Origin: Sclerotinia nivalis | Lineage: Eukaryota; Ascomycota; Leotiomycetes; Helotiales; Sclerotiniaceae | Assembly (NCBI GenBank): GCA_029531795.1 | Contig: JAPEIS010000001.1 | Span: forward strand, 6,200,001-6,264,000 | Direction of reading: 5' to 3' | Length of the DNA: 64,000 bases | In this document: one piece after another, positions 28,021 through 55,031 of the stretch | Numbering within the stretch: position 1 is the stretch's first letter | Layout: the number at the start of each line of letters is the position of its first letter | Program-made: the position numbers and the translations under genes | The notes under the pieces: generated by a model | Databases searched by the model: none | Told to the model about the DNA's origin: nothing | What the model saw: only the letters and a program-made list of their open reading frames with translations

Positions 28021-28062
28021 ACCGATATCCCTACATCGTACACGACCCTACATCTTGCACGC
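28021..28062. repeat. left terminal inverted repeat of Fot1-like element
   Basis: 42 bp beginning ACCGATATCCCTACATCG; pairs with 54990-55031. The three mismatches are all C/T or G/A. Confidence 0.9.
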
Positions 28063-28185
28063 CCCCTATATCACAATTACGATCACTTCAAAATTCGATA
28101 TTAATTATAATTTATAAGATATAAAACTACGATTTCTTTTGATATATGAAAAGATATAGTATTATCCAATAGAATCAAAAAATCT

Positions 28186-28564
28186 TTACTTCATCAATTT
28201 CGACGAAATCTTGATGTATCGCCCAGCCCTTGAATGCAATACCCCTTTCTTTTCTTCCACCACTGATTTATCAACCTCTATGATATCGTAATCCTTTATA
28301 GCTTCCTTAGATACTAAACTTATAATATAAGAACATTTTAGAATCATTTGAATTCTTTTAACAAAAAGTATTAATGATTTCCAAACTCTTTTCATTCCTT
28401 CCTTAGTATTATATACAATTTGATGATCAATTTCCTTTTGTACTATCTTCTCTTTAATCGCTTTATCTCTCTATTCCTTTTCAATTTTCTTTTCAGTTTT
28501 CTTTCGTTTCTTAGCTTCCTTTTTCTGTTCAATAGTTAATGCTTTAATCGATTAGTAAATTCTA
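28186..28564 (-). pseudogene. C-terminal part of Fot1-like transposase
   Basis: The last frame (28186-28395) ends KKGVLHSRAGRYIKISSKLM. Upstream minus-strand frames are Lys/Glu-rich (EQKKEAKKRKKTEKKIEKE), the order seen at the tail of Fot1/pogo transposases: a basic coiled region plus a sequence near HSRAGR. In-frame stops break it. It continues across the LTR nest at 53396. Confidence 0.6.
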
Positions 28565-28569
28565 GCTCT
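28565..28569. repeat. left target-site duplication GCTCT
   Basis: A 5-bp duplicate of 53391-53395, flanking the outer gypsy-like element. An exact copy on both sides of a 24.8-kb insertion shows its true ends. Confidence 0.92.
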
Positions 28570-28782
28570 TATCATGGAGGCAACAGACAGAATAACAGGA
28601 ATCACTTTTATTAATAAGATATAGTTCGAAGAGTTACGTTTTTATAGAAGGAACAATTCCTTAAATATATTTATGTGTAATATTAGCCCTGATCGGGGCT
28701 AGTCTATATTTATCCGAGGTCCGATTCCTATGAATCGGAATCTGAATGGTCTTTGTATACTATATACAGGGATCCTGTGATA
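28570..28782 (-). repeat. 3' LTR of element 1
   Basis: 213 bp from TATCATGGAGGCAACAGAC to CCTGTGATA, which are mutated forms of the family ends TGTCACGGAGG and CCCCGTGACA. Same length as LTRs at 29014, 42630, 47869 and 53016. Confidence 0.88.
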
Positions 28783-29013
28783 GTATTCCTTTTTTTAGGG
28801 TCGAGCTCCGTTGAGACGATTAGAGAGATCAGATTTATCCGGATAACGATGATAGTAATTATAAATCAGTTCTTGAATATTCTCTAAATACTTTGTAGAT
28901 TTTTTGGTAGATGTATTATAGTTTATTTATCGGATAGTATATTTCAGGTAAGGGTTATTACAGTCTTGATATTTTTATTAGGAATTTAGGATTTTCTTTA
29001 TATCGAATTGTTT

Positions 29014-29226
29014 TGTCACGGGGTCCCCGTATATGGTATACAGAGACCGCTCGGGTTCCGATCTATAAGAGTCGGACCTTGGATAAGTGTAGGCTAGCCC
29101 CAATCAGGGCTAACATTATATATAAATATATTTAAGGAACCATTTCTTTTATAGAAATGTAGCTTTTCGAGTTATATCTTATTAATAAAAATAATTCTTG
29201 TTATTTTGTTTATTGTCTTTGTAATA
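29014..29226 (+). repeat. 5' LTR of element 2
   Basis: Starts with an intact TGTCACGGGGTCCCCG and ends CTTTGTAATA (from CTCCGTGACA). Same family as the other 213-bp LTRs, inverted relative to element 1. Confidence 0.88.
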
Positions 29227-29953
29227 TTATATAGCTTCTATTTATCTGTATCGATATTTCTATAATATCATTTTATCTGTATTCATTTAGCCAATTCGAT
29301 TTCCTTGAAGAATTCGCTATTATTGTAGTTAGCGATATTACGATCTAGTATCATTATCTTATCTCCCTTTACAACTATAATATAAAAATAGAAACAAAAA
29401 TAATCGATCTATAATCTGTAATTCAAAAGTTTATTCTCGATCTACAAATCGAGAAAACTATATTTATACAATAAAAGAAAAAGAATGATAAATTGATTAC
29501 CCATCTAATTCAATTTCATTCTATCCCCATCGCTCTGTCTATTTCAATTCTCATCGATTTAATCAATTCCTTACCTTTAACATCTATTATAACCCCAACT
29601 ACTGCTTTTGTTCTATCGAAGTCTTAATTGAATAAGAAAATACCTAACCCTATACCGTTTGATAAAACGAAAATCGATCTTGATCGATTTGTCGATCAAA
29701 TATAAAATAAAATACATATCAATTCCGATTACTTTATTTCCCCACATTCTCATTTGATTTACATAACTAGAAGATTAACTAAATTTGTTATCGTACAAAT
29801 TCGATTATATAATATTAAAGAGCAATTTGTTAAATTTACCGATTATAAGGATTTATTACAAATATTAGAAAAAGCTTATAGAAATCAAAACAAATAAATC
29901 GAAACCCGAAAATTCCTGATCAACCTGAAACAAAAAAACTAATCATTCTATAT

Positions 29954-30116
29954 TATCACGGTGAGGGAAAAGGTATGTGTAGGTTTGATCTATTGTTGTA
30001 CTACGAGGAGGAGAAGAAGGTCAAGGAGGTGATCTGACTATATAGAAGTGAGTGTATGTATGTGTGCCTAAGGTATATATGATCATGTGCAGGTGAAGGG
30101 AGATGAATCTGTAATA
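29954..30116 (-). repeat. 3' LTR of element 3
   Basis: 163 bp from TATCACGGTGAGGGAAAAGG to GAATCTGTAATA. Pairs with 36541-36703 at identical length. Confidence 0.92.
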
Positions 30117-30580
30117 GTATTCCTTTTTCAAGAAAACCATTTGATCTCAAATGGATATTAAAAAATAAAGAAAAATAAAGAAAAAATATAGATCTTTTTT
30201 TTCAATTAGATTCCTGAACAAAAAATATATGATATTCTTTAATGATGTTATATCCCTTATTGTTATAATATATAATATACTTTTAGGCGAAGTGAATAAT
30301 CTTAATACGAGTGGATCTTTGTAGAGTAGGTATAGCAATCGTGCTGTGTGATTTCGATTGCAAATTTTGTGGTTTCGGTTGCAATATAATAGCGTCGGGG
30401 TGTTTTAGGATCCAAGCTAGCAGCCCTGGTTTTTTTTAGATGAAAGTGATGATATTCGATAAGAATCTTCTTGTTATTTTTTAAGTTATTAATTGATTAC
30501 TAAGTTGGTATGTAGTGTCTTTATTTGATTAAATAATGATAATCATTCTTATCATAATTATTTAGAATTCTTTCAAATAT

Positions 30581-31680
30581 CTATTTCTGAATAGGTTCAT
30601 CTTCATTATTGTTCTGTTCCAAAATTCTATTCTGTATAGTTAGGGATTCTAACTTGTTAATCGTTGTTTGAATTAGGAAGTGAGGATTAGTATAAGCTGG
30701 AAGTAAAAGAGAATGATGAAAAACAAAGAAGATTTTAATATTCTCAAACAATTGAACAAGACAAATACAAGGATAAACTTTGATAATCTCGTAAAGACCA
30801 ATCCATTTATCATCTAGCTTTTTTGTTTTGCACGAAGTCTTCATATTTTTGGTATTGACAAAGACTTTCTGGTCAGTTATATAGCGAAATGAATCAAAAC
30901 GATAGCAGTTAACATAATCCTCATAAGTAGTAATTGCTTGTTATACAAGAGCACGAAATTACTCCAAGATATATTCCATGCAATCTGCAATCCTATTACC
31001 TTTAAAGAATTCCCGTTTTTATATTAGAATCATATCCGATAAACAAGATTTACTAAACTCAATATCTAGATATAAATTAAAGCTATAATTAATGAAAAAA
31101 GTCGAACAACCAATTGTTTCAAAAACCAAATTATTGGATACAAATTCAGCTAAAGATAACCAATCCAATCAATCATCTTGATAATAATTAACAAAAGCTT
31201 ATAAATACTACTCCAGAACCAAATTAATACACTCAATCTGATCATCTATTTGAAAATGAAAAGCTGAAGAATATTTTAAAGTAACTCCCAACCACTCCGA
31301 AAATTGTAACCAGAATCCTAATACGAACTACATTCCCCAATCGAAAATGATATTGTCCGAAAATCCATAAAGCATATAAATACAACTGATAAAAGCATCG
31401 ATTAACTCCTCTATCGTTAACATATATATACCAATGAAATATCTCATTTTGATTAACCTACAAATTACCATCAAGATATATTTATAGATAGAATTATAAC
31501 AAATACAATCCAGAAGCAATATAATATAATCGATTGAGATATCAAACCATACACGAAAAAGAACAAACAACGGTTTCAAAAATCCGGGAGGCGCCGATTT
31601 GAACGATTTGATACAAATACAAAGTTCGCAAACCTTTATATAAAATACGATCTCCAAATACATATTAAACCATCAATATA
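30581..31680 (-). pseudogene. integrase remnant of element 3
   Basis: The frame at 30581-30844 reads KLDDKWIGLYEIIKVYPCIC, then LFENIKIFFVFHHSLLLPAY, the conserved region just after the gypsy integrase core. Upstream, 31328-31663 keeps weaker core-like pieces. Several stops interrupt the frame. Confidence 0.75.
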
Positions 31681-32099
31681 TACGAAAAACAAAATCGATT
31701 ATTTTAATTCAACCAAAATAACCAACAGAACCAAAAGAATGAATTCGATAGATAATTTGGAGTTTGAACTCATCATCTGATGGAACCCAAATCTTATCCC
31801 GATAATAAATTCTATTATTTTGGATCAAACAATCTTATATAACGATCCGAAAAGTTTTACGATACTCTTTTAGCTATTTAATCATTAATAGATCGTTAAA
31901 AGCAAAAATAAGTTGATCTACGATATCGGATCTAATATATACTATATCGATTAAGGTATCAATTGGTTGATCGTGGAATAATATTATTGTTTCCATTAGT
32001 ATTAAATTGATATATCCAATCAAATCTTTATAAAAGTCGTCATCAAAACAGCCCTAAAGGAAAACAATACATTTTCGATTCTTTAAACACTCATCGTTT

Positions 32100-33430
32100 G
32101 GATCAAAGCAATACAATTAATCTTCGTGTTTTCTATTTAGTGTATCTAATCGAATAGTTTTATTTCCTAATCGATAGACTATACGGAAATTATATTGAGA
32201 TAGAAATTCAGATTATTGTACTTGTTATTGATTGAGAGCTTTTGTAATCATAAAATATTCGAGGTTCTTATAATCAATGAGAATCTCGAATTCCTCTTAT
32301 AAGCCTTGGAACTCTAAACACTATTCTTTTATTGTTTTGATAATAACGAGTAGTTCTTTGTTGTAGATCTTATAATTGCATTCCGCTGCTATATACTTAG
32401 ATAAAAAGTAAACAACTAAATACAAAACATTATCATTATTGTATTGCGAGAGAACTCTTTTTGAAATTCAATCGGAAATATCGATTTCCAAAACAGTTTT
32501 CCGTCTGTAATCAAAGTATACCAAAACCGGCGCCATTATAAAAGCTTTTTTTAAAATATCAAAAGCCTTTATATAATCTGCAATCCAATCCTATATAATA
32601 TTCTTCTGCAAAAGGTTGTTGAAAGAACGACAAATCTTTGAAAAATCTTTTATAAAACATCGATAGAAATTGACAAAACCGAGAAATCGTTGTAAATCTT
32701 TTACACATAAAAGCAATTCCCAAGATATAATAGCCATAACCTTTTCTTGATCCATTTCGATGCCTTCGATTGTAATAATAAAACCCAAATACTTTGTCTT
32801 CGTGATTTCGAACTCGCATTTGTTAATATCAATTTGTAATCCAGCATCCATTAACTTTTGAACTACTTAACGAATATACTCTTTATACTCTACAAGATTA
32901 TCGAAGTAGATTAGAACATCATCGAGATATATAATGCAATACTTATCCAACTCGTCGAAAAGTATATGATTGATATAATATTAGAACAATACAAACACAT
33001 TGCAAAGACCGAAAAGCATAATTAGAAATTCAAAAAGACCAAAACAAATAATGAATACAGTTTTCCATTCATCTCCTTCAGCGATTCGCAATTTGTTGAA
33101 CACTGCAATGATATCAAGCTTGGTATAAATTTTTGCATTGCAAAAAGCATCCAACGTTTCACAAACGATAAATAATGGATAACGATTCTTTATAGTAATG
33201 TTATTTAGTCCTTGATAATCTTAACAAATGCAGACCCCCCCTTTCGGTTTAGCAGCCAATAGCAAAGGAGAAACACATTGCAATTTCGATTCCCGAATGA
33301 ATCTTTTGGAAAGATTATCATCAAGTCATTTGCACATTATTATCAATTCCATTAGCGATAAAGGGCAGTTTTTGAAATAAAATAGTTCTTTATTAGGTAT
33401 CAATTCAATTTTGTGATCCCAGATTCGACG
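32100..33430 (-). pseudogene. reverse transcriptase/RNase H remnant of element 3
   Basis: YLDD (32918-32929) is intact in CIIYLDDVLIYFDNLVEYKE. The downstream frame 32591-32851 reads CEFEITKTKYLGFIITIEGI and LQRFLGFVNFYRCFIKDFSK, the RT thumb and connection motifs of Ty3/gypsy. RNase H follows toward 32100 with stops. Nonfunctional. Confidence 0.85.
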
Positions 33431-35180
33431 AGGCAGCAATTTATTTGTATAATGTAAAAGAAAGACAAAAAGTTTGTTTTGTAACCATATAAAAAGTCTT
33501 TATTGTATTTGATTATCACTAAAGGGAGATTTGCCGGTTAAAAATTTATCGATATCAATTTCAGAGATTTTTTGCAAATGGAATAGCTTATAACAATTGT
33601 ATATAAAATCATAAAGTTATAATAGGGTTCTAAAAAGTATCTTTATTATATTATCTTGCCCTTATAAAATCGATCGAAAATCTTTTTCTATGAATATCAA
33701 AGACAATATAATCTATCGCAAATGATCTTGCTCAACAGTTTTCTGTACAGCATCCAATTCATCCTATATCAATCGGATAGCTCGAATATTATCTTATTGA
33801 CAAAACGAAACAAAGCTAGAAATTTACAACCAACAAATATCATCCATATTTGAACTTGTATCTTTGTAAATAGATATAAAGAGTTTTCCAATAGAAAACA
33901 AAAACAAATAGTTTTTTAAATTGTAAATAAACTAACACCGATCTACAATCTTTAAAATCGATTTTGAATATAAACAATTGGGAATCATCTATACTTGATT
34001 ATTGATTCTCCACAACGCTTTGTTCGATAATAATTCATACTAAATATCAAATCCTACTGAAATTCGAAATCAATAGAAGAATCGTCAAATTATAATATAT
34101 AACCTTCATCTGATATCTCTTCAATAAAAAGTTTTTTATAAAAAGTTCTTTTAAAAATAGAAAACGTTTGAATAGATAAACAATCGATATCGTCCTTTAA
34201 ACAATCCTTGATATATAAAAAATAGTATTTATAAACTGTACATTTAACTTTTATATCAAAATCGATAAGGAATTTATTTAAAAGTTCGATAGCATCAATA
34301 ATTTATTGTAAAATAACTTTTGCTAAATCCTCTTATTCCTTGATCGAAGATAAGATCGTTAATACAGTAACTGACTTTGAATTATAACATACCAAACAAT
34401 TGGAAATGTAATAGTTTGAAAAGAATATTAAATTTATTTCTATTCAATTGATAATAGGATTATAACATTATAACTATAATAAATCAAAGATTAATAGTAT
34501 CTCTAATAAAAGCTAAGTAATATAAAAGGATTAATATTTATAATAATCCTTTATAGCGATTTCCATTACAAAATATTCTGTAATTCTATCAACGATCTTT
34601 TTATTGGCAAATCGGAGTTCGCGAAAGTAAAATAAAAGTTGTATTTCAATATTATATTTGAAAACAAAAGAACAATCAGCAAAGACTTCTCCAAAACATC
34701 CATTATCAATAAGACTTATAACAGTAAAGGGATTTTCATACACAAAGAATATAATGGTTTTAATGAATAGAGATTTACTATTTATAGAATTGAACTACAA
34801 TAACTTATCTCTATCCATTCCTCGATTTACCTTTTTGCCCTTAGTATTCCTCTATGAACGATTTTTCGTAAAGATTAATCTTTTCCCTGTTCAGGATTTT
34901 CCTTAACTGAATTGAATATAGAAACAACCTTCTCTAGCTCGATATAACCTTGCCATTATGCTTGATTCAGGTGTTATTAACTTTGTACCCAATTATCAGT
35001 ATATCCTTCTCGAAATCCATTGCGATTATTATTAAACCTATTAGCACCTCGAAAAGCCGGAACAACAGCATATTGATCGAAGACCGGATTAGTTGAAGCA
35101 ACGATATTACAATTGGAAAAGGTATTAACAGAAGCTTGTTTGTCAAAAAAAAGATTATTATTGATATCATAAATAATATA

Positions 35181-36250
35181 ACAATCAATCTAAAAGTAAT
35201 CGATTCTACCACAACAATTACAAGAAACCACAAGATTAAACTTCTTTTTCTTATTTTGTAGACCCTTTTTCTGTTGTCCCTTTTATTTCATTATATCGAG
35301 ATCCATAAGATCACTATCAACAACAAATGCTTTACCAGAATTTTTATTATAATACTCAACGTTATGAAGATTCTAACTCCAAGTAAAGAATTTCTTTTGC
35401 CAACCATCAACATTGTCGGCCATACAGAAGTTCGAATCACCAATAACCAAAGTTCGAAAAAGGACCGTAACCTTTTACTTCATCGTATTAACAATCTCGC
35501 GATCAGATTTGTAACAAGAGTTAGCAAAATGAAACAATGTAGAAAAGAAAGCTGAAAAAGATTCCTTTGGATTTATAGAAAGCTTATCGAATTTGAGCGA
35601 GGTTTTCTTTTCGATATCCACAGAGATATATAATTTGTCCAATTTGACCAAAAACGAAACAACGGAATCGAAACAAATAGGATCGTCAACGAATCTAATG
35701 ATATCCATAATACATTCTTATCATACTTGATTATCGAAAAGATTAATAACATAACTAATCTTCTTTTGTTCGAAAACAAAAAGTTGTAAATCGACCATCC
35801 AACAGAATTGCAAACCCAACTTCCAAAACTGATAGTCCTTTTGTCGAACAAAAATATTAAATCTTTCGCCTTTAAAAACAGACGGATCCTTCTGAGTTTA
35901 ACAAAAAGTAATCGGTTTCTGACTAATAGCAACACCATCAGCATCCAGCTAAGCTTACTTGCCAACTAGAATACAAAAAAGCTCAACATTTTCCGTTTTG
36001 AATTCTTCGGTCTTATTTATTTGAATAACGATATGGATAGCTTGAATAGTAAAGCGATCTTCAATAACAAAGAAAATATAATTCAGATAAACAGTTTGTT
36101 TGTTAAAACCAACAACAAGATTTGATATCACTAAAGCATCCAATTCTACTAGGATTTATATAATAATAGATCATTGATCGAAGACTCGTTGAATTTCGAT
36201 ATGAATTCCTTCGATAGAAATAGAAATCGTACTACCAACGAATATAGAAC
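35181..36250 (-). pseudogene. gag remnant of element 3 with mutated zinc knuckle
   Basis: One frame reads DPSVFKGERFNIFVRQKDYQ and on to FDNQV before a stop. A CCHC knuckle at 35181-35222 reads CNCCGRIDYF*IDC: Tyr stands where His is expected (CAC to TAC) and TAG replaces a residue. Both are single-base transitions expected of RIP. Confidence 0.7.
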
Positions 36251-36540
36251 CAAAAGCCATTATAAAAAGAATTACAATTGCACCAAATAATCGATAAGGA
36301 ATTTGCGATTACACAAAAGCAATCAAAAACAAACACAAAAGCCTGCGAATAAATACAATCGTACAAAAACAATCAAGAATCAGAAACTACACAAAAACAA
36401 ATAAAAAATACAACTATACAAAAACAAACGAATTACAACAATACAAAAGCAATCGAAAACAGATACAAAAGCCTATAGATGATTTAGCAAGGTCAAATTA
36501 CTTCGTAAAATAACGAAGCCTTTGAAAAAATAGTACAAAT

Positions 36541-36703
36541 TATCACGATAAAGGAAAAGGTATATATAGATTTGATCTATTATTATACTACAAAGAGGAG
36601 AAGAAGATCAAGGAAGTGATCTAACTATATAGAAGTGAGTGTATACATATGTGCCTAAGGCATACATGATCACGTGCAGGTGAAGGGAGATGAACCCGTA
36701 ACA
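36541..36703 (-). repeat. 5' LTR of element 3
   Basis: 163 bp from TATCACGATAAAGGAAAAGG to GAACCCGTAACA, followed by TSD TATAT. Confidence 0.92.
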
Positions 36704-36708
36704 TATAT

Positions 36709-38165
36709 CTTTTATACTGAATTCCAAAGACTAATATTGAAAACCGGGATGGTCAATGATAATAATACTTTGATTATTCTATTAAAATAAATTCTATCGA
36801 ATGAATTAAAAAACCAGATTATTATTGTTAAGCTATTTACAAATAGTATTAATATATTTATTGTTTTTATACAAACATTAAAGAATTGCTATTTATATTT
36901 GATGAGATCGATCAATTCCAATCGCAACCCAATCATCCCATCATTCTATATTACAATTCAAAATCTGAATCTTGTTAATTATACTTCTACTTTGTTTCCG
37001 AATACTATTATTCGATCTACTGTTTCTGTTACAATTATACCTACTGGAGATCCAATAGATCTCAGTTCCTAAAGATATACTAATAGATACAAACGAAAAG
37101 AATACTTCTGTTATGGATCTACTGATTACTATATAAAGGATTGTTTATTCTCAAATAATCATTCTATATAAGCTAAAACTAATCTTACCAGTTTTGCCTT
37201 ACCATTCTTTATTCCGTTCTTCGCTTAGATTCAATTATATATTATATCATTATACAATCTATCCCCTTTCGACTCCCCGAATTCAAAAAACAGAATCCGC
37301 TTAATATAAATCGTTATCAAACGAAAACCCTATATATACTATACCTATCCATCACTACAATTCGAGGCTTATCTTTTGCTAAAGAAACAAATAATCGAAT
37401 AAACCTGATAATATTGTTTGTTACTATCCTACCGATATCTAATCGATCCTATTCCATTTACATTATAATGAATAATGAATACAAAGGATATACTTTCATA
37501 AATCGAAATTGAATTGAAACTATTAAACTTTCAATATACAAATTATCTGTTCTATTTGAAATCATTAGATTCAATAGAAAAATACTGCCTGAAAACCAAA
37601 TGGATCATTATATCCTAATCGATCTACAAATCAACGATTACTATAAGAAAAGATCGAAAATCTATATCATTGAATTAGCTTATTATTCGAATATCCTGAG
37701 ATTAGCCTAGCTAAAGAAATACAATCCCTATATCAGATTCGCATCCAATACCTTTCACTTCGATAACGAGTCCTACTAGAAGTCCTATAATATACCTACA
37801 CAATTATCGAATATCCAAACTCTATCCGATATCCCTATCAAAATCTATTCTGTTTATCTATTGTTCTATTCTGAAATATTAAAGAAAAAAAAATATAACA
37901 AACATTTCAATCCAAACTTACTCAATATACATCTATCAAAATTACAAAATGTTTCAAGCTAGTATCGATTTGATAAATCGAATCCTAAAAGAAAAAGAAG
38001 ATTTTGTTTTCGAAGATCTATCTATTGAATTCCGATTGTAAATCGATATATTTTCTTTATATAACATTAACAAATTATCTCTACACTATCTATACAATCA
38101 TAATATCCGATTACAAGATAGAACTAAACTACCGTTTGAAGCTCTGTATTCAATATCTCAAAACG
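36709..38165 (+). pseudogene. gag/protease-region remnant of element 2
   Basis: A zinc knuckle at 37103-37144 reads YFCYGSTDYYIKDC against the expected C-x2-C-x4-H-x4-C. The first two Cys are Tyr and the His is Tyr, all explainable by G to A or C to T. Frames around it are short and stop-filled. The sister copy at 46650-46691 (minus) has lost the same cysteines. Confidence 0.6.
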
Positions 38166-39256
38166 AATTGAAAACTTTACAAAAATAATTAAAAGAAAAT
38201 CTAACAAAAGAATTCATTTAATCGAATTCTTTCGTTTCTATTTCGTTTGTTCTATTTGTTAAGAAATCCAATAATAATCTTCAATTTTATATAGATTATT
38301 ATATATTGAATAATTTATCTATAAAAAACCAATATCCATTACCCTTAATCAAAGAATTCTTGAATAATCTGAAAAGGATGAAGTATTTTACGAAAATAGA
38401 TATTATCTCAGTTTTCAATAATATCCGAATCAAAGAAGAATAAGAATATCTGATTATATTCTGTACCCGATTTAGTCTATTCGAAACCTTAATTATATTA
38501 TTTGAATTGATCAGAATCCTAACAACATTCCAACAATTTATCAATGATATTCTGAAAGAATATCTAGATATATTTTATATTATTTATTTGGATAATATTC
38601 TGATCTACAATAAGATTTATTCTGAATATATAAAGTATATACAAAAAGTATTAAACGTTTTACAGAAAACCGGATTATATATCAATCTATCGAAATACGA
38701 ATTTCTAAAACCTGAAACGAAATTCTTGGGTTTAATTATAGATTAAAAGGGGATCCGAATAGACTCAATCAAGATTAAGATAATAATTGATTGAAAAACA
38801 TCGAAGAATCTGATAGATATATAAATATTTATAGAGTTTAACAATTTCTATCGATACTTTATTCGTAATTTCTTCTCGATCATTTATTCGATAATAAATC
38901 TGATTAAAAAGGATATAGTCTTTCAATAGAATCTTGTTTATAAGAAATCGTTCTTGAATCTGAAAACTGTATTTATAATAGCATTTATATTAACCTTTTT
39001 CGATTAGAAAAAGGATATGATTCTAGAGATGAATATATTGGATTATATATCTGCTAGAATTCTTTCTTAATATAATAACAATGGAATTTTGAAACCTGTT
39101 ATATATTTCTTTAAGAAATATTCGATTATAGAGTATAACTATAAGATTTATAATAAAGAATTACTAACAATTATTCGCTATTTCGAAGAATAGCAATCCG
39201 AATTAGAAGATGCTTTTTCTTTGATCAAAATCATTATAGATTATAAAAATCTGAAG
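38165..39256 (+). pseudogene. reverse transcriptase/RNase H remnant of element 2
   Basis: Readable through stops: [35 protein letters not shown], then the polymerase motif as YLDN (38585-38596) instead of YLDD, then KYEFLKPETKFLGLII and RNase H-like [20 protein letters not shown]. The sequence is cut at 39257 by the mariner insertion and resumes at 40694 (CTTTACAACTAC). Confidence 0.82.
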
Positions 39257-39377
39257 TAAGAGTTCTGGACATCACTCACCGCACACCATCCATTTTTCGT
39301 ATATACTTTTAATAATTTAATAATAAATCAACTTTACAATATTTTTGATTGAAATTTTGAAGATATATTAATGAATA

Positions 39378-40568: not shown

Positions 40569-40693
40569 TTTGAATTTGAAAAGAAAATATTGAAGATTCG
40601 AATAATGGTAGATTATTTAAAATGGGGGGTTGGAAATAAGGTGGCTGGGTTGATCTCGCTTAAATGTGCGGTGAGTGATGTCCAGAACTCTTA

Positions 40694-42629: not shown

Positions 42630-42842
42630 TATTACAAGGTCCCTGTATATAATATACAAAGACCATTCGGATTCCGACTTATAAAAATCGGATCTTGGAT
42701 AAATATAGGCTAGCCCCAATCGGGGCTAATACTACACATAAATATATTTAAGGAACCATTCCTTCTACAAAAACATAACTCTTCGAGCTACATCTTATTA
42801 ATAAAAATGATTCCTGTTATTCTATCTGTTGCCTCCGTAATA
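42630..42842 (+). repeat. 3' LTR of element 2
   Basis: 213 bp from TATTACAAGGTCCCTG to CTCCGTAATA; directly repeats 29014-29226. Confidence 0.88.
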
Positions 42843-42847
42843 TATTT

Positions 42848-45800
42848 AATGTTTTTAATTTCGATAGAAGAGAAAGATAGATTATATTGTTTAAAGATAG
42901 AATCATTATTGATAAGATATAATAGATTAATATAAAAGATCGAATGATTTTTTATAAAAATAAAAAATTCTAATTCATAAATATATAAGTTTATGATTTT
43001 CAGAATTTAGAAGGGATTTAAATTCTTCTAATCTAATTTCTTTTGGAAACGAAAAGTTCGGATATTCTTAATATTAAACTAGATTAGATTTTTAAATTGA
43101 TATCGATAGATAGATGAACAATAAAAATCGGTATTCTTTGAATAATAGATTTAATTAATAATCAATTCGATCTTCAAATAATCAATGATCGATTTCATCT
43201 TTTTAACGAATTCTTTAGTATTTAGGATTCCAAAGCGATTGGAAAGTATAACAGATTCGAAATCTATTCGGAGATGGAAATTGTAATTGATAAAGAATGA
43301 TAATAGATAAAAACTTTTGGATCAAATAAAGTTAATTAAGAATTCGACGATTGATAGTTATTCGGATTAATCGTTTTGTAGATAGAATATATATAAATGA
43401 AAATATTGTTTGAATATTGTATTTGCTTTTTTCGTTTATTTATTGATTTTAGGATAATAAGTTATTGATAGTTTCGAAATAGTATTTAATCGTTTATAAA
43501 TATATTTCCAAAAATCAAAAATAAATTAAACTTTACAATTGGATATAATGGTTTGTAATAAATTATAAAGCTTTTATATATATTTCAGAAACAAATAGAA
43601 GATTTCTTTAGAATTATAGGTTTTTTGGTAGAATAGAAAATACTTCATTTTGGTTAATCGATCGATTACAATAAATATTGTATTGTATTTAAAGCTTTTC
43701 GGAAGATAGATAATGAAATCGATTGAAATATCTTTCTAAATTTGTTATAGAATTGGAAAAAAATATAAGATTCCTTTTTGTTTTTTATAGTTCAAAATTA
43801 TAATAATTGTATAGTTAATAAAAGATATAATTGTAATATCTAGATCAATAGTAATTTTGAAAAAGCAATTCGAAGATATAAATATAATATAGATATTCGA
43901 TAATAAAGAAATCGTAAATCATTTGAAAAAGTTTTGTTTTTAAAGAATTATAATTAGGGATATAAAGTTTTTTATAATAATATAATAGATTATTATTTAT
44001 AATATATTTAGATAATATAATATATAAATATTTAGTAGTATTCTTTTTTAAAGCTTTTAGAATCGATAATAGAAATAGATCGAATAGATAAATTTCAACG
44101 AATAAAGGTTTTAGTTTTTCAAAGGGATTCCAATTGTATAGATTCAAATCATTGGACAGGGATTGAGTTATCGAATATCGCAGATGGTTCAGATTCACAA
44201 ATAGGTAATCCGGATTTGCGAATAGATGATTCAGGATTACAGATAAATAATAGAGTATCAATATAGATTTGATTATAGATTATAATCGCGAAATGGATTT
44301 TCTTTTTTCGATTAATAATAGAAAACAAATCTGTATTTAGATTTTCAGTTTTCAAAACAATTTGATTTTGATGAAGAAAGTATTTATCCTTTTTTTTTAG
44401 ATAAATCCTTTGATCTTTTGATTAGAGTATTAGATTTCGTTCTTTGCTTTTCAGAATAATATATAATCTTGAAATTGAAATGGAACAAAAATTCAGATTA
44501 ATAGATTTGATAATAGTTCAATAGTTTTATGATTGTAAAGTATTCTAGATTTTTATAATTTATAATGATTTTGATTAAGAAAAAGACGTTTTCTAATTCG
44601 GATCGCTATTTTTCGAAATAGCGAATAATCGTTAATAATTCTTTATTATAAATCTTGTAATTATATTCTATAATCGAATACTTTTTAGAGAAATATACAA
44701 TAGATCTCAGAATTCTATTATTATTATATTGGAAAAGGATTTCAATAGATATATAATCCAATATATTCGTTTTTAGAATTATATTCTTTTCTTAATCAAA
44801 AAAAGCTAATATAGATATCATTATAAATATAGTTTTCAGATTCGAAAATGATTTCTTATAAATAAGATCCTATTGAAAGGCTATATTCTTTTTAATCAGA
44901 TTTATTATCGAACAAATAATCGAAAAGAAATCGCGAATAAAATATCGATAGAAATTACTAAACTCTATAAATATTTGTATATTTGTTAAGCTTTTTGATG
45001 TTTTCCAATCAATTATCATTTTAATCTTGATTAGATTTATTCGGATTCCTTTTCAACCTACAATTAGACCCAGGAATTTCGTTTCAGATTTCAGAAATTC
45101 GTATTTCAATAAATTGATATATAATCCAACTTTCCGTAAGATATCTAGTACTTTTTGTATATACTTTATATATTCAGAACGGATTTTATTATAGATCAGA
45201 ATATTATCTAAATAAATAATATAGAATATATCTAGATATTCTTTCAAAGTATCGTTAATAAATCGTTGGAATATTGTTAAGGTTTCGATCAATCCGAATA
45301 GTATAATCAAGATTTCGAATAAACCGAATCGAATACAGAATGCAATCAGATATTCTTATCCTTTCTTGATTTGGATATTATTGAAAACCGAAATGATATC
45401 TATTTTCGTAAAATATTTTATCCTTTTCAAATTATTCAAGAACTTTTTGATTAAAAATAATGGATATCGGTTTTTTATAAATAGATTATTCAATATACGA
45501 TAATCTATACAAAATCGAAGATCATTATTAGATTTCTTAACAAATAGAACAAACGAAACAAAAGCAAAGGAATTCGATTAGATGAATCTTTTTACTAGAT
45601 TTTCCTTTAATCATTTTTGCAAAGCTTTCAATTCGTTCTAAGATATTGAATATAAAGCTTCAAATAATAGTTTAATTCTATTTTGCAATCAGATATTATA
45701 ATTGTATAAACAATATAGAAATAGTTTGTCAATATTATATAGAGAAAATATATCGATCTATAATCGGAATTCAACAAACAGATCTTCGGGAATAAAATCT

Positions 45801-47812
45801 TTTTTTTTTTCAGGATTCGATTTATCAAATCGATATTAACTTGAAATATTTTGTAATCTCGATAAATATATATTAAGCAAATTCAGATTGAAACATTTAT
45901 TATATCTCTTTTCTTTAATATTTCAAAACAGAACAATAGATAAACAAAATAGACTTTGATAAAGATATCGAATAGAACTCGGATACTTGATAATTGTATA
46001 AATATATTACAAAACTTCCAATAGAATTCGTTATCGAAACGAAAAGTATTGAATATAAATCCGATATAAGGATCATATTTCTTTAATCAAGCCAGCCTTA
46101 GAATAATCAGATAATAAATTAATTCAATAATATAGATTTTCGATTTTTTTTTATAATAATCATTGATTTATAGATCGATTAGAATATAATTCATTCGGTT
46201 TTCAGATAGTATTTTTCTATCAAATTCAATGATTTCGAATAGAATAGATAATTTATATATTAGAAGTTTAATAGCTTCAATTCAACTTCGATTTGCAAAA
46301 GTATATTCTTTATATTCGTTATTCATTATAATATAAATAAAATAAGATCGATCAAATATCGATAGGATAATAATAAATAATATTATTAAATTTACTCAAT
46401 TGTTTGTTTCTTTAATGAAAGATAAATCTCGAATTGTAATAATAGATAGGTATAATATATATAGAGTTTTCGTTTGATAATGATTTATATTAGATAGATT
46501 TCGTTTTCTGAATTCAGAGAGTTGGAAGGGGATAGATTGTATAATGATATAGTATATAATTAAATCTGGACGGAAAACGGAATAAAGAATGATAGGGTAA
46601 GATTAATAAAATTAGTTTTAGTTTATATAGAACAATTATTTGAGAATAGATAATTCTTTATACAATGATTAATAGATCTATAATAAAAGTATTTTTTTCG
46701 TTTATATCTATTAGTATATCTTTGAGAACTGAAATCTATTAGATTTTTAATAGATATAATCGTAGCAAAAGCAACAAATTGAACAATAGTATTCGGGAAC
46801 AAAGTAGAGATACAATTAACAGAATTCAGATTTTGAATCGTAATACAGAGCGACAGAATGATTAAGTTATGATCAAAGTTGGTTGGTTTTATCAAGTATA
46901 AATAACGATTCTCCAATGTTTATATAAAAACAATGAATATATCAATATTATTTGTAAATAGTTTAATAATAACAATTTAGTTCTTTAGTTCATTCGATAG
47001 AGTTTATTCTAATAGGATAATCAGGGTACTATTATCGTCAGCCATCCTAGCTTCCAATACTAATCTTTGGAATTTAGTATAGAAGATATAGAATAATTGA
47101 TTTCTTTGTTTCAAATTGATTAGGAGTTTTCGAGCTTTGATTCATTTGTTTTGGTTTCTATAAGCTCTTTCCAATATTTGTAATAGATTTTTATAATCAA
47201 CAAATTTAACAAATTGCTTTTTGATATTATATAATCGAATTTATATAACAATAGATCTAATTAATCTTTCAGTTATATAAATCAAACGAAAATATAGAAA
47301 AATAAAGCAATCGGAATTGGTATACATTTTATTTTATATTTGATTGATAAATCGATCAAGATCGATTTTCGTTTTATCAAATGATATAGGATTAAGTATC
47401 TTTTTACTCAATTGAGATTTCAACAAAACAAAAACAACAATCGGGATTGTAACGGATATCAAAAACAAAAGATCGATTAAATTGATGGGGATTGAAACAA
47501 ACGAAGCGATAGAGATGGGATGAAATTGAATTAGATAGATAATTAATTTATTGTTTTTTTTCTTTTATTATATGAATACAGTTTTTTCGATTTGTAGATC
47601 GAAAATAAGCTTTTGAATTACAGATTATAAATCGATTATCTTTATCTTTATTCTTATATTATAATCATAAAGGGAAATGAGATAATAATACCAGATTATG
47701 ATATCGTTAATTATAGCAGTAACGAATTCTTCAAGGGAGTTAAATTGATTAGATAGATGCGGATGAGATGATATTATAGAAGTGTTGATATAGATAGATA
47801 GAAGTTATATAG
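42848..47812 (-). pseudogene. gag-pol remnants of element 1
   Basis: Minus strand: zinc knuckle remnant at 46650-46691, where the Cys positions read Tyr. RT piece at 45053-45310 reads FQRFINDTLKEYLDIFY and YLDN (45203-45214), then KYEFLKSETKFLGLIV. An integrase-region piece is at 43845-44261. No long frame survives. The left end joins sequence at 29013 once element 2 is removed. Confidence 0.8.
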
Positions 47813-47868
47813 TATTATAGAGACAATAGATAGAATAACAGGAATCACTTTTATTAATAAAATATAAT
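47813..47868 (-). repeat. 5' LTR of element 1, first fragment
   Basis: 56 bp starting TATTATAGAGACAATAGA; equals nucleotides 1-56 of the 213-bp LTR. Broken by element 5 at the TSD ATAAT (47864-47868). Confidence 0.88.
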
Positions 47869-48081
47869 TATCACGGAGGCAACAGACAGAATAACAGGAA
47901 TCACTTTTATTAATAAGATGTAGCTCGAAGAGTTATGTTTTTATAGAAAGAATGATTTCTTAAATATATTTATGTGTAATGTTAACCCTGATCGGGGCTA
48001 GTCTATATTTATCCGAGATCCGATTTTTATAGATCGGAATCTGAACGATCTTTGTATATTATATATAGGGATTCTATAATA
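47869..48081 (-). repeat. 3' LTR of element 5
   Basis: 213 bp from TATCACGGAGGCAACAGAC to TTCTATAATA. Confidence 0.88.
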
Positions 48082-51000
48082 GTATTTTCCTTTTTAGAGT
48101 CGAGCTTTGTTGAAATGATTAAGGGGATTAGATTTATTTGGATAACGATGATGATAATTATAAATCAGTTCTTGAGTATTCTTTAAATACTTTGTAGGTT
48201 TTTCGGTAGGTGTATTATAATTTATTTATCGGATAGTATACTTCAAACGGGGGTTATTATAGTCCTGATGTTTCTATTGGGAATTCAGGATTTCTTTTAT
48301 ATTGAATTGCTTAATGCTTTCAATTTCGATAGAAGGAGGGGACGGATTATGTTGATTGGGGATAGAGTTATTATTGGTGAGATACAATAGATTAATATGA
48401 AAAATTAGATGATTCTTTATAAAGATAGGGAATTTCAGTTTATAAATATACAAGTTTATAGTTTTTAGGATTCGAAAGGGATCTAAGTTCTTTCAATCTA
48501 GTTTCTTCTAAAAATGAAGAATTCGGATATTCTTAGTATTAAATCAGATTAAATCTTTAGATTGGTATTGATGAATAAGCGAACGATAAGAATCGGTATT
48601 TTTCGAATAATAAATTTGATTAACGATTAGTTTGGTTTTTAAATGATCGATGATCGATTTCATTTTTTTGACGAATTCTTTAGTGTTCAGAATTCTAGAG
48701 CGATTAAAGAGTATGATAGGTTCGAAATTTATTCGAAGATGAAAACTGTAATTGGCAAAAAACGGTGATAGGCGGAAGCTTTCGGATTAAACAAAATTAA
48801 TTGAAAATTCGGTGATCGGTAGTTATTTGGATTAATTGTTTTGTAAATAAAATATATATAAGCGAAGATATTGTTTGAATATTGTATTTGCTTTTTCTGT
48901 TTGTTTATTGGTTTTAGAATGATAAATTGTTGATAATTTCGAAACAATATTTAATCGTTTATAGATATATTTCCAAAAGTCAAAGATAAATTGAATTTTA
49001 TGATTGGATATAATAATCTGTAGTAGATTATAAAGCTTTTATATATATTTCAGAAATAGATAGGAGATTTTTTTAAAGTTATAGATATAATGTAGATATC
49101 TGATAATAAAGGAATTGTAAATTATTTGAAAGAATTTTGTTTTCAAAGGATTATAATTAAGGATATAAAGCTTTTTATAATAATATAATAGATCATTATT
49201 TATAATATATTTAGATAATATAATATATAGATATTTAATAATATTCTTTTCTAAAGTCTTTAGGATCGATAACAGAAATGAATTGAATAAATAAGTTTTA
49301 GTAAATAAAGATTTCAGTTTTTCAAAAGATTTCAATTATATAAATTTAGATTATTGAATAGGGATTGAATTATTAGATATTGTAGATAATTCAGATTTAC
49401 AGATAGATAATCCGGATTCTCGAATAGATAGTTCGGGATTGTGGATAAACAATGGAGTATCGGTATAGATTTGATTATAGATTGTAATTGCAAAATAAAT
49501 TTTCTTTTTTGAATTAATAATAGAAAATAGATTTGTATCTAGATTTTCAATTTTCAAAATAATTTGATTTTGATAAAAAAAGCGTTTATTCTTTTCTTTA
49601 AACAAATCTTTTGATCTTTTGATCAAAATATCGGATTTCGCTTTTTGCTTTCTAAAATAATATATAATTTTGAAATTAAAACGAAATAGAAATTCAGATT
49701 AGTAGATTTGACAATAATTCAATAGCTTTGTAATCATGAAGTACTCCAGATTTTTATAATTTGTAATAACTTTAATCGAAAAAGAAGCGTTTTCTAATTT
49801 GGATCGTTATTTTTCGAAATAACAAATAATTACCAATAATTCTTTATTATAAATCTTATAGTTATATTTTATAATCGAATATTTTTTAAAGAAATATACA
49901 ATAGGTTTTAGAATTTCATTGTTATTGTATTGGGAAAGGATTCTAGTAGATATATAATTCGATATATTTGTTTTTAGAATTATATTCTTTTTTTAATCGA
50001 AAAAGACTAATATAGATGCCGCTATAAATGCAGTTTTCAAATTCGAAAATGATTTCTTATAAATAGGATTTCATTGAAAGGCTATATCCTTTTTGATCAG
50101 ATTTATTATCGAGCAAATGATCGAAAAGAAATTGTGAATAAAACGCTAATAAAAATTGTTAAACTTTATAAATATTTATATATTTATCAGGTTCTTCAAT
50201 GTTTTCCAATCAATTATTGTTTTAATTTTGGTTGAATCTATTCGGATCCCTTTTTGGTTTATAATTAGATCCAGGAATTTCGTTTTAGATTTCAAGAATT
50301 TGTATTTTAATAGATTGATATATAATCTGGTTTTCTATAAAGCATTTAGTACTTTTTGTATATATTTTATATATTCAGAATGGGTTTTATTATAGATCAT
50401 AATATTATCTAGATAAACAATATAGAATATATTTAGATATTTTTTTAAAGTATTGTTGATAAATCGTTGGAATGTTGTTGGGGCTTTGGTTAATCCGAAC
50501 AGTATGATCAAGGTTTCGAATAAGCCGAATCGGGTATAGAATATAATCAAGTATTTTTATCCTTTTTTGATTTGAATATTGTTGAAAATCGAGATAATAT
50601 TTATTTTTATAAAATACTTTATCTTTTTTAGATTATTCAAGGATTCTTTAGTTAAAAATAATGAGTATCGGTTTTTTATAGATAAATTATTCAATATATG
50701 ATAGTCTATATAGAATCGAAGATCATTATTGGATTTCTTAATAAATAGAACAAACAAAACGGAAACAAAAAAGTTTGATCAAATAAATTCTTTTATTAGG
50801 TTTTTCTTTAATTATTTTTGCAAAGCTTTCAATTCTTTCCGAGATATTGAATATAGGGTTCCAAATGGTAGTTTAGTTTTATCTTGCAATCGGATATTAT
50901 AATTGTATAAACAATGTGAAGGTAATTTATCAGTGTTATATAAAGAAAATATATCGATCTACAATCGGAATTCAATAAATAGATTTTCGGGAACAGAATC

Positions 51001-53015
51001 TTCTTTTTCTTTTAGGATTCGGTTTATCAAATCGATATTAATTTGGAATATCTTGTAGCTTCGATAAATATATATTGAATAAATTCGGATTGAAAGGTTT
51101 GTTATATTTTTTTTCTTTAATACTTTAGGATGGGGTAATAAATAAACAGGACAGATTTTGATAAGGATATCGAATAGAGTTCGGATATTCGATGGTTATG
51201 TAGATGTATTACAGGATTTCCGGTAGAATTTGTTATCGAAATAAAAAGTATTAGATGCGAATCTGATATAGGGATTGTATTTCTTTAATTAAATCAATTT
51301 TAGGATAATCGGATAATGAATTAATTCAATGATATAGATTTTCAGTCTTTTTTTATAATAATTGTTGATTTGTAAATTGGTTAGAATATAACAATTCATT
51401 TGGGTTTCAAATAGTATTTTTCTATTGAATCCAATAACTTCGAATAGAATAAATAATTTATATATTAAAAGCTTAATAGTTTCAATTCAACTTCGATTTG
51501 TAAAAGTATATTCTTTGTATCCATTATTCATTATAATATAAATGGGATAGGATTGATCAAACGTTAATAGAACAATAATAAACAATATTATTAGATTTAT
51601 TCGATTGTTTATTTCTTCAACAAAAGATAAATCTCGAATTACAATAGCAGATAAATATAATATACAGGGTTTTCGTTTGACAATGATTTATACTAAACAA
51701 ATTCCATTTCCTGAATTCGGGAAACTAGAAGAGGACAGATTGTATAATAATATAATATATAATTAAATCTGAATAGAAAATAAAATAAAGGATAACAAAG
51801 TAAAACTATTAAGACTAACTTTAGTTTGTATAGAACGATTATCTAAGAACAAATAATTCTTTATATAATGATCGATAGATTCACAACATAAATATTCCTT
51901 TTATTTATATCTATTAGTATATCTTTAGGAATTGAGATCTATTAGATCTCCAGTAAATATAATCGTAATAAGAGCAATAGATCGAATAATAATATTCGGG
52001 GATAAAGCAAAAGTACAATTAATAGGATTCAGATTTTGAATCGTAATATAGAACAATAGAATAATTGGATTGCAATTAGAACCAATCAATTTCATCAAAT
52101 ATAGATAACGATTCTTTAATATTTATACAAAAACAACAAATATATTAGTACTATTTATGGGTAGTTTAACGATAACAATTTAATTCTTTAATTCATTCGA
52201 TAGAGTTTGTTCTAATAGGATAATCAGAATACTATTATCGTCGATTATCTTGGTTTCCAATATTAATCTCTGGAATTCAGTATAAAAGATATAAAACAAT
52301 TGATTCCTTTATTTTAGGTTGATCAAGAGTTTTCGGGCTTTAATCTGTTTATTCTAGTTTTTATAAACTTTTTTTAGTATTTATAACAGATCCTTATAAT
52401 CAGTAAATTTAACAAATTGTTCTTTGATATTATATAATCGAATTTATACAATAGCAAATCCAATTAATCTTTTAATTATATAAATCAAATAGAAATACAA
52501 AGAAATAAAGCAATCGGAATTGATATACATTTTATTCTATATTTGATCAACAAATCGATCAAGATCGATTTTCGTTTTATCAAATGATATAGGGTCAAAT
52601 ATCTTCTCATTCAATTGAGACTTCGACAAAACAAAAACGACAATTGAGATTGTAATAGATATCAAAACCAAAGGATCGATTAGATCAGTAAGGATTGAAA
52701 CAAATAAAACAATAAGGACAGAATAAAATTGAATTAGATAAATAATCAATCTATTGTTTTTCTCCTTTTATTGTATGAATATAATTTTCTCGATTTGCAG
52801 ATCGAAAATAAGCTTTTGAATTATAGATTGCAAATCGATTACCTTTGCTTTCATTTTTATACTATAATCGTAAAGAGAAATAAGATAATGATATCAGATC
52901 GCAATATCGCTGATTACAGCAATAGCGAATTCTTCAGAGGAACCGGGCTGGCTAAACAGATACAAATAGAATAATATCATAAAAGTATCGGTACAAATAA
53001 ATAGAAGCTATATAG
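48082..53015 (-). pseudogene. gag-pol remnants of element 5
   Basis: A gag N-terminal frame lies at 52537-52749 (KIFDPISFDKTKIDLDRFVD). RT lies at 50557-50757 ([19 protein letters not shown]) and 50335-50550 (GLTKAPTTFQRFINN, then YLDN at 50404-50415). An integrase-region frame is at 49039-49335. Stops interrupt every domain. Confidence 0.82.
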
Positions 53016-53228
53016 TATCATAGAGGTAACAAACAGAATAACAAAAATCACTTTTATTAATAAAATATAACTCGAAAAACTACGTTTCTGCAAAAAGAAC
53101 AGTTCTTTAAATACATTTATATATAGCATTAACCCCGATCGGGGCTAGCCTACACTTATCCGAGGTCCGACTCTTATAGGTCGGAACCCGAGCGGTCTCC
53201 GTATACCATATACGGGGACCCCGTGACA
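53016..53228 (-). repeat. 5' LTR of element 5
   Basis: 213 bp from TATCATAGAGGTAACAAAC to CCCCGTGACA; its right end keeps the unmutated terminus. Confidence 0.9.
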
Positions 53229-53390
53229 ATAACTCGAAAAGCTACATTTCTATAAAAGGAATGATTCCTTAAATACATTTATATGTAACATTAGCCCCGA
53301 CCAGGGTTAGCCTACACTTATCCGAGGTCCGACTCCTATGGGTCGGAACCCGAGCGGTCTCCGTATACCATATACGGGGACCCCGTGACA
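53229..53390 (-). repeat. 5' LTR of element 1, second fragment
   Basis: 162 bp beginning ATAACTCGAAAAGC, equal to LTR nucleotides 52-213 with the 5-bp duplication, ending CCCCGTGACA next to TSD GCTCT. Visibly less mutated than the 3' LTR of the same element. Confidence 0.9.
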
Positions 53391-53395
53391 GCTCT
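53391..53395. repeat. right target-site duplication GCTCT
   Basis: Exact partner of 28565-28569. Confidence 0.92.
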
Positions 53396-54939
53396 TTCAA
53401 TTTGTGAAAAAGAGTATAAAAAAGTATTTCCGTTCTTCTTCTTTATGAGGTTTAAATGTTTGGAATGGATTCTTTTCTTTTTTTCGATCTTTAGAACTTC
53501 TTTTAGATTCTTTGTTTTATGTAATTGGATATTAGCATTAATTATATTTGTAAATGCAATTTTAAAAAGCTTCTAAATGATATCGGGATTCTGTTTGAAG
53601 CGAAACTCTAATTTGAAGTAACGAAGAGTTTTAGTTGTATATAATATCTTTATTTTATTCCTTACAAGTTGTATCAATATAGATAGCGTAAAAACTCTTT
53701 TAGATTCGATATTGCGAATAATAACGTTTTTATTTATAAAATAAATACTTGCTTTTTCGAAAGATTTCAGGATATTATAAATAATAGCAGATTGAACCCA
53801 AACTATCTTAAATATCATCCAAAAGTTACGTTTCGATATCTCAACGATACCTTTGTTTTTGTATATCAGATTGTTGAATTTTATATTATAATTCGTCGAA
53901 AAGAAAAGGAAATAGCTTATATCAAGAGATTGTAATTGATATATAGAATAGAAAAAAAGAATCAATAAAATGATTTTCAATTTATTGCATTTCGATATAA
54001 ATTCTATATTTATATAACTAGGATGATTATCTATAATCAATAAACGATATCCTTTCTTTGCTTTTGAACGAGTATAACATTGAAAGACCTTGGTAAACCA
54101 AATGAAGCTAAATACATTCGATGACCATCTATTATTTGAAGCTCCGAAATAAATCTGATCCTTCATTTTTATTTCATCAATCTATATATCCTATAGATCC
54201 CCAGATTCCCTTTTATAAATTAGAATAGAAAAGATAATTGTTCTATCGATATATATATATACTAAAAGGATGATAAACTCTTTTGATTCGTTCTGTTTAG
54301 CTTTTATAATTTTATTACAATTATATATACTAGCATTTATTATTCTCTTTATAATTCTTCCCAGATCAATAAGAAAGCCTTTTTCGTCCCAATTGTATAT
54401 ATTCTTCGATGATATATTGTATTTTGTAGTCATTTTTGTTAACTAAATGAAAAAAAGAAGGATATTAGTATAACTCTTTTAAATAATAAAATTCAACAAC
54501 AATATAAAATAATTCAAATTAGATTATAAAAATGCTCAAATATAACAATATTATCAATTTTTATATACAAATTATCAATGTATTAGAGATACCGATTTTG
54601 AAGATGTGTTTTATGTCTTTTCACAAAATTTACTATTCAATTCTTCTCTAGAAAATGATTTATGATCTTTTTTATAAGGTTTTTGATTATACAATTTATA
54701 GGAGATATAGATCTCTATATCAATTTATTGATTTGATCAATTAAAGTCTCTTTTTGCTTTTTTGAAAGAGATTGATGAGTTTCAGTATATACGGTATTGC
54801 AGGAGGTGGTTTTGTCTTTATAGCGCCAAGAGAACATCGAACGATTGATTTTGAAGAAATTAGCTATTTGAGTATATTTAGAATGCTTTACATCTTTAAT
54901 TTGAGTTAATGCAAACTCCATACAGGCCTCTGAAGGCAT
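53396..54939 (-). pseudogene. N-terminal and catalytic part of Fot1-like transposase
   Basis: ATG near 54939 (MPSEACMEFALTQIKDVKHS) begins the DNA-binding region. Downstream, 54191-54433 has YNISSKNIYNWDEKGFLIDL, with the first catalytic Asp in NWDEKGF. The frame 53573-54166 has LLIIDNHPSYIN (second Asp; the family usually shows DGHxSH) and LQSLDISYF (third Asp). The order fits DDE_1 transposases of Fot1/pogo elements. Stops and frame changes lie between pieces, and the gene is cut by the gypsy nest at 53395. Confidence 0.85.
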
Positions 54940-54989
54940 ATCATCGCTGTATCTGTTTATAGTGATTGATATTTTATAAAATTAAAAGT

Positions 54990-55031
54990 GCGTGCAAGAT
55001 GTGGGGTCGTGCACGATATAGGGATATCGGT
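54990..55031. repeat. right terminal inverted repeat of Fot1-like element
   Basis: 42 bp ending GGGATATCGGT; inverted copy of 28021-28062. Confidence 0.9.

Follow-up and report, generated by a model that had tools for sequence, protein, structure and literature searches.

A nest of seven transposon insertions in Sclerotinia nivalis whose order is not reproduced by LTR divergence

Introduction

Nested LTR retrotransposons have been surveyed in 12 plant genomes, where inner elements are on average younger than the elements enclosing them as judged by LTR divergence (PMC6911290). In the Podospora retrotransposon crapaud, full copies are mutated by RIP while solo LTRs mostly are not, and its authors urge care with LTR age clocks (PMC10787394). 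Closer to the organism considered here, transposons of Botrytis and Sclerotinia carry C-to-T changes with CpA and CpT signatures (PMC4352252), and an index-based survey ranks B. cinerea among the genomes with little RIP (PMC7882544). Solo LTRs and TRIMs are also mentioned, in large numbers, for the related genome of Sclerotinia sclerotiorum (PMC5004834). Throughout, comparisons with these sources and with the Helenus TRIMs (PMC10886601) refer to the passages of them that are drawn on here.

The locus described below lies in a window of 64,000 nucleotides of the Sclerotinia nivalis genome (C1:6200001-6264000; 50.3 Mb in 31 contigs) and holds seven insertions to a nesting depth of five, as established by self-comparison and from the sequence. 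It departs from the plant nests in that LTR divergence does not rank its inner elements as the younger ones, and in that one insertion (element 5) sits within an LTR, whereas LTRs are not common targets in the plant survey (PMC6911290). The contrast between mutated full copies and a mostly spared solo LTR is shared with crapaud, which concerns another family and another order and whose passages do not include nesting order as a check (PMC10787394). The C-to-T excess is common to the transposons studied earlier in Sclerotiniaceae and to those of this locus; in contrast to the CpA and CpT signatures described there, the rates in the outermost, Fot1-like element are nearly flat with respect to the next base (PMC4352252). 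A literature search, to which subscription papers were mostly inaccessible, found no report of this nest.

Results

Architecture of the nest

An earlier note made from the letters of the window had described a five-level nest in which every shell has matching ends and target duplications. All of the shells, ends and duplications were found (Table 1), confirming that the nest is real and that the nesting is as that note stated. The outermost Fot1-like element itself accounts for about 2.2 kb (28021-28569 and 53391-55031), and its ends form a 44-nt inverted match including the TA (93% by self-comparison); its left part is matched, over half or most of its length, at 21 places, the window's included. 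Elements 1, 2 and 5 belong to one family (~82% alike), which is common in the genome (40 places scored of 219 candidates), and element 3 belongs to a different LTR family, with 57% DNA similarity to the reverse transcriptase region of element 1 in the same orientation. The two pieces of the 5′ LTR of element 1, split by element 5, do add up as proposed (56 + 162 − 5 = 213 bp) to the 213 bp of its 3′ LTR. A stretch of ~250-260 bp present in element 1 (43620-43872) and element 2 (41373-41624) is missing from element 5 near 49076-49086, reflecting either a deletion or a subfamily.

Table 1. Features of the nest and its flanks (positions within the window).
Level	Feature	Position	Strand	Remarks
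	Host gene, left part	27230..28018	+	Open frame 27230-28021; tblastn
	TA target duplication, left of Fot1-like element	28019..28020
1	Fot1-like (pogo) element	28021..55031	−	TA duplications, 42-bp TIRs
2	LTR retrotransposon element 1	28570..53390	−	GCTCT both sides
	Element 1, own sequence	28570-29013, 42843-47868, 53229-53390
	Element 1, 3′ LTR	28570..28782	−	213 bp
3	Element 2	29014..42842	+	TSD TGTTT/TATTT; in 3′ internal region of element 1, opposite orientation
	Element 2, LTRs	29014-29226, 42630-42842
4	Element 3	29954..36703	−	TSD TATAT/TATAT; inside element 2
	Element 3, LTRs	29954-30116, 36541-36703
4	Tc1/mariner	39259..40691	−	TA duplication, TIRs identical; inside element 2
5	104-bp piece, probable TRIM solo LTR	40023..40126	−	TSD GATGC/GATGC; inside mariner; strand by eye
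	Element 1, 5′ LTR, piece a	47813..47868	−	56 bp
3	Element 5	47869..53228	−	TSD ATAAT/ATAAC; within 5′ LTR of element 1
	Element 5, LTRs	47869-48081, 53016-53228
	Element 1, 5′ LTR, piece b	53229..53390	−	162 bp
	TA target duplication, right of Fot1-like element	55032..55033
	Host gene, right part	55034..55682	+	tblastn

Class membership was examined with a Pfam scan of ten open pieces, selected among 34 with 85 codons or more; four gave fitting domains and the other six had no fitting match. RVT_1 was detected in element 1 (45056-45355, minus strand; E 6e-14) and in element 2 (38444-38743, plus strand; E 4.2e-12), DDE_1 in one of the two pieces scanned from the Fot1-like element (minus strand; E 2.7e-7) and HTH_Tnp_Tc3_2 in one of the two from the mariner (E 1.1e-10), while neither of the two pieces scanned from element 3 nor the single piece from element 5 had a Pfam match. 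The outermost element thus combines the TA duplication, TIRs and DDE_1 domain of Fot1/pogo transposons, and the mariner combines a TA duplication and TIRs with a Tc1-type DNA-binding domain. Elements 1, 2, 5 and 3 have the paired LTRs and 5-bp target duplications of LTR retrotransposons; the name gypsy is the label of the earlier note, and the reading frames are broken.

Other genomic copies continue across the joins

Six internal joins, taken as they stand in the assembly, were tested on further copies from the same genome. For each join, 150 bases per side were searched separately, both had to match within 30 bases, and each place was counted once. The search covered 64 of 69 loci plus the window; L001, L009, L021 and L041, all four cut from the place of the window itself, were excluded, as was L069. 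These loci are a capped sample of the copies, and some of the places lie within the window, at its own further copies. The target duplications that had been predicted appeared as overlaps at uninterrupted copies for all six joins, with the exception of one Fot1 place. The overlap was 5 bases in 15 of 16 places at the join of Fot1 and element 1 (the remaining one overlaps by 7), in 6/6 places for element 2 in element 1, in 28/28 for element 5 in the LTR of element 1, in 12/12 for element 3 in element 2 and in the one place available for the TRIM piece in the mariner, and it was 2 (TA) in 7/7 places for the mariner in element 2. Copies interrupted at a join fall outside these counts by construction, and at least one such copy exists (L049). 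By match coordinates, 12 of 13 other mariner places have both halves around the TRIM join and all 12 overlap by 5; the thirteenth (C1:8013759) is without the left half. The nest is not a chance arrangement, since at every internal join the genome has further copies that continue across it with the overlap predicted.

The nest interrupts a host gene

In an addition to the earlier account, the flanks of the nest are two parts of one gene. An open frame of 263 codons in the left flank stops at the insertion. A search for related proteins gave 13, of which 12 carry the name Botrytis or Botryotinia, and four of the 13 were compared by tblastn with the two flanks kept apart. In these comparisons one 31-residue stretch of the left flank matches at 94% and other stretches at 54-82%. 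The match stops at 28019 and resumes at 55033 (three proteins) or 55042 (one). In three of the four homologues the residues on either side of the nest are consecutive (187/188, 229/230 and 61/62), and in the fourth the two matches are separated by three residues. The left part also contains at least one frame change ahead of the insertion. The gene is thus broken and the nest lies within it; on these alignments, the Fot1-like element splits a gene that is continuous in Botrytis-type relatives. By eye, the product is Ser/Thr-rich with one likely membrane segment and resembles a Ser/Thr-rich single-pass membrane protein. An 18-bp tandem repeat lies within the open frame at 27500-27607. Elsewhere in the window, the best matches with a name to the PIG-P protein encoded at 20700-21623 come from Botrytis aclada (86%), Monilinia (79%) and Ciborinia (77%), in keeping with a host of the Sclerotiniaceae.

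The 104-bp piece corresponds to the LTR of a TRIM

The innermost insertion had been called solo-LTR-like, and it can now be assigned to the LTR of a TRIM of ~434 bp. A complete 434-bp element (L069, C11:2354620-2355053) consists of 104 + ~226 + 104 bp flanked by the duplication TCTAC, that is, two short LTRs, a short middle and a target duplication. The 29-base end of the piece has 45 matching places (34 exact and 11 with one mismatch), and a reversed control of it has none. Twenty loci around whole 104-bp copies, the window's included, are all 98-100% identical, with an exact 5-bp target duplication in 16, a duplication with one C/T difference in two and none in two. At a Fot1 locus (L013), two further copies (98% and 88%) enclose a stretch of 227 bp that gives eight matches, or seven places if a close pair is merged, and the TRIM middle is nearly whole at five places, the query being included in each of these counts. 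The copy within the mariner is therefore, by sequence comparison, most readily identified as a solo LTR of this TRIM. A purine run adjoining one LTR, recognized by eye in the full-length copies at L069 and L013, was used to assign the strand of the 104-bp piece; no primer site was recognized in the TRIM. Helenus TRIMs are likewise small non-coding LTR elements, with 5-bp target duplications in fungi, and differ in the tRNA-like sequence in their LTR, which was not detected in this TRIM (PMC10886601). Membership in Helenus had been considered on account of a tRNA-like stretch seen by eye; ARAGORN and Rfam found no tRNA in the window's 104-bp piece or in L069, and the assignment was dropped.

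Two further insertions were encountered among the copies examined. Another mariner copy (L030, C14:737724-739159) carries a TRIM solo LTR at a different site, and a Fot1 copy (L055, C1:7808294-7808547) carries an insertion of ~254 bp that starts TGTGACGAT and ends ATCGTCACA and is perhaps another short non-autonomous element.

Nesting order and LTR divergence disagree

Nesting places Fot1 before element 1, element 1 before elements 2 and 5, element 2 before element 3 and the mariner, and the mariner before the TRIM. The earlier note had held that relative ages follow directly; this is so along each chain of insertions, whereas between branches the order is only partial. Element 5 is free relative to elements 2 and 3, the mariner and the TRIM, and element 3 is free relative to the mariner and the TRIM, so that 15 full orders (counted by hand) are compatible with the nesting. 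A comparison of LTR pairs, which the same note had proposed as a check, was run and returned the wrong order: the pair of the inner element 5 differs by 52 transitions in 213 sites (24%) and that of the enclosing element 1 by 40 in 218 (18%), with 42 in 213 for element 2 and 22 in 163 for element 3. Together the four pairs show 156 transitions and 0 transversions over 807 sites. Dating of the shells by LTR divergence was abandoned: every change is a transition, and the ranking runs against the nesting. For the same reasons C-to-T decay, not time, sets LTR divergence here. That 807 sites hold no transversion points to a recent origin of the four retroelement insertions. The interpretation offered in the earlier note is thus supported, within these limits on the full order and on dating.

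Decay of the long repeats

The divergence of the Fot1 and LTR copies is almost wholly C-to-T decay. Comparison of 20 Fot1 regions (including two pairs, L049/L050 and L057/L058, that may each be part of one copy) with the least mutated copy, which serves as an alignment reference only, gave 5006 C>T or G>A changes, 171 reverse transitions and 75 transversions. Against the window's copy, 14 regions with more than 2000 aligned sites gave 288-345 transitions and 0-11 transversions. As in RIP, the C-to-T/G-to-A transitions are concentrated in repeats, and GC content is 42-43% in the host flanks, 24-29% in the Fot1 and LTR elements and 36% in the mariner. The load varies by copy and is sometimes strongly biased to one strand, as in L053 (84/399 sites vs 5/492); other copies are balanced. 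Along Fot1, the mutated fraction rises from 0.07-0.12 over the first 200 bp to 0.32-0.40 in the five interior bins tested, then falls to 0.16-0.25 over positions 1986-2135 and to 0.08 in the final 50. The outer Fot1 ends are spared in the copies within L049-L068, the change on the left being abrupt at about position 200.

The dependence on sequence context differed between families. In Fot1 the rates by next base were similar (CpC 0.348, CpA 0.347, CpT 0.320, CpG 0.305), so the CpA preference of RIP was not found there, and the preceding base had the stronger effect (A 0.435, T 0.244). For the element 1 family, 25 LTR matches gave CpA 0.317, CpT 0.274, CpG 0.202 and CpC 0.172. This family does prefer CpA and CpT, which weakened the case for RIP independent of the next base; such RIP is not put forward as a firm claim. 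By the thresholds quoted in PMC5004834, the standard RIP indices flag neither the Fot1 and LTR elements (TpA/ApT 0.81-0.84; (CpA+TpG)/(ApC+GpT) 1.20-1.32) nor the mariner; they do flag the near-unmutated 104-bp piece, but at that length their values carry little weight. Eight matches to PF00145, a family of DNA methyltransferases, are spread over five genomic places; they are assigned to the family, and none to RID or DIM-2. In the pooled LTR pairs, plus-strand C-to-T and G-to-A changes stand at 69:18 in left LTRs and 14:55 in right LTRs, in both orientations of element. We do not turn this into a left/right rule: the left LTRs of elements 1, 2 and 3 fall within a 1.6-kb span and cannot count as independent cases, and the pattern is absent from the 56-bp piece of element 1.

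Alternatives to successive insertion

The similarity and abundance of elements 1, 2 and 5 are what would allow ectopic recombination between copies, or an assembly error, to produce an apparent nest. Recombined elements are usually without paired duplications, whereas every shell here has matching ends and paired target duplications and other copies run through the joins, which makes this origin extremely improbable. For the innermost insertion, a short inverted-repeat element moving on its own, and not the LTR of a retroelement, could be envisaged: the 104-bp piece has 9-bp perfect terminal inverted repeats and a single hairpin fold (z −4.7 and −4.8), and no second copy lies nearby for 19 of 20 copies examined with 1.5-kb flanks or for the window's own. 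Such an element would not account for L069, in which two 104-bp units surround the ~226-bp middle within a common duplication, or for the recurrence of that middle, which ends in the purine run beside the repeat (by eye), and we consider it improbable.

A different question is raised by a second Fot1 copy (C3:1665054; L049, C3:1663000-1672999, ~2603-2815), in which a solo LTR of the element 1 family occupies exactly the base at which element 1 lies here, with the same orientation; a second solo LTR lies further along. In the plant survey, nested pairs at similar positions are always at least 50 bp apart, whereas here the base is the same (PMC6911290). Part of the nest might accordingly have moved as a unit, a Fot1 element already carrying an element-1-type LTR having been transposed or duplicated. 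The short left flanks of the two Fot1 copies read differently, however, and the duplications differ yet are each self-consistent (GCTCT/GCTCT vs GTTCT/GTTCT), and a T at that second duplication base is also found in 6 of 16 uninterrupted places. Nor do the two copies have an excess of common C-to-T sites: 59 were observed against 61.0 expected (z −0.5, ranking 171st among 183 pairs), on an alignment covering only ~1000 sites of the C3 copy. Joint movement is considered unlikely. Either a preferred target or joint movement before the decay may account for the same-base LTRs.

Discussion

We regard it as highly probable that a Fot1 insertion into the host gene was followed by six further insertions and then by RIP-like C-to-T decay of the long repeats. 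According to this model, a Fot1/pogo-type transposon would have entered the gene and served as a landing ground for element 1, followed by elements 2 and 5 of the same family. Element 3, from a second LTR family, the mariner and the TRIM would also have inserted, the TRIM then collapsing to a solo LTR. Each arrival would have proceeded by its own ordinary integration and left the usual target duplication; the joins are observed directly, and they point to separate arrivals. RIP-like mutation would then have decayed the long repeats, a pattern that is seen in the copies and for which premeiotic RIP is the putative cause. The TRIM LTR is nearly clean, probably because 104 bp is too short for recognition, which presumes a length threshold.

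The C-to-T decay seen here escapes the standard RIP indices. The repeat defence of this fungus may mutate C with little regard to the base that follows, in many copies mainly on one strand, and spare repeat ends (in Fot1, ~200 bp on the left and, on the right, ~50 bp strongly and 150 partly), and would so be missed by CpA-based indices. If so, RIP would be under-counted in Sclerotiniaceae; we put this reading forward tentatively, as somewhat less than an even prospect.

Nested, decayed transposons are ordinary in ascomycetes, and the value of this locus is as a well-ordered test case. The short TRIM has left solo LTRs that are nearly identical at many places. For the specialist, the points of interest are the failed clock, the decay with weak sequence context and the LTR at the same base in a second Fot1 copy. 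The order of the nest owes nothing to mutation rates, and it shows that an LTR clock can be reversed under RIP-like mutation.
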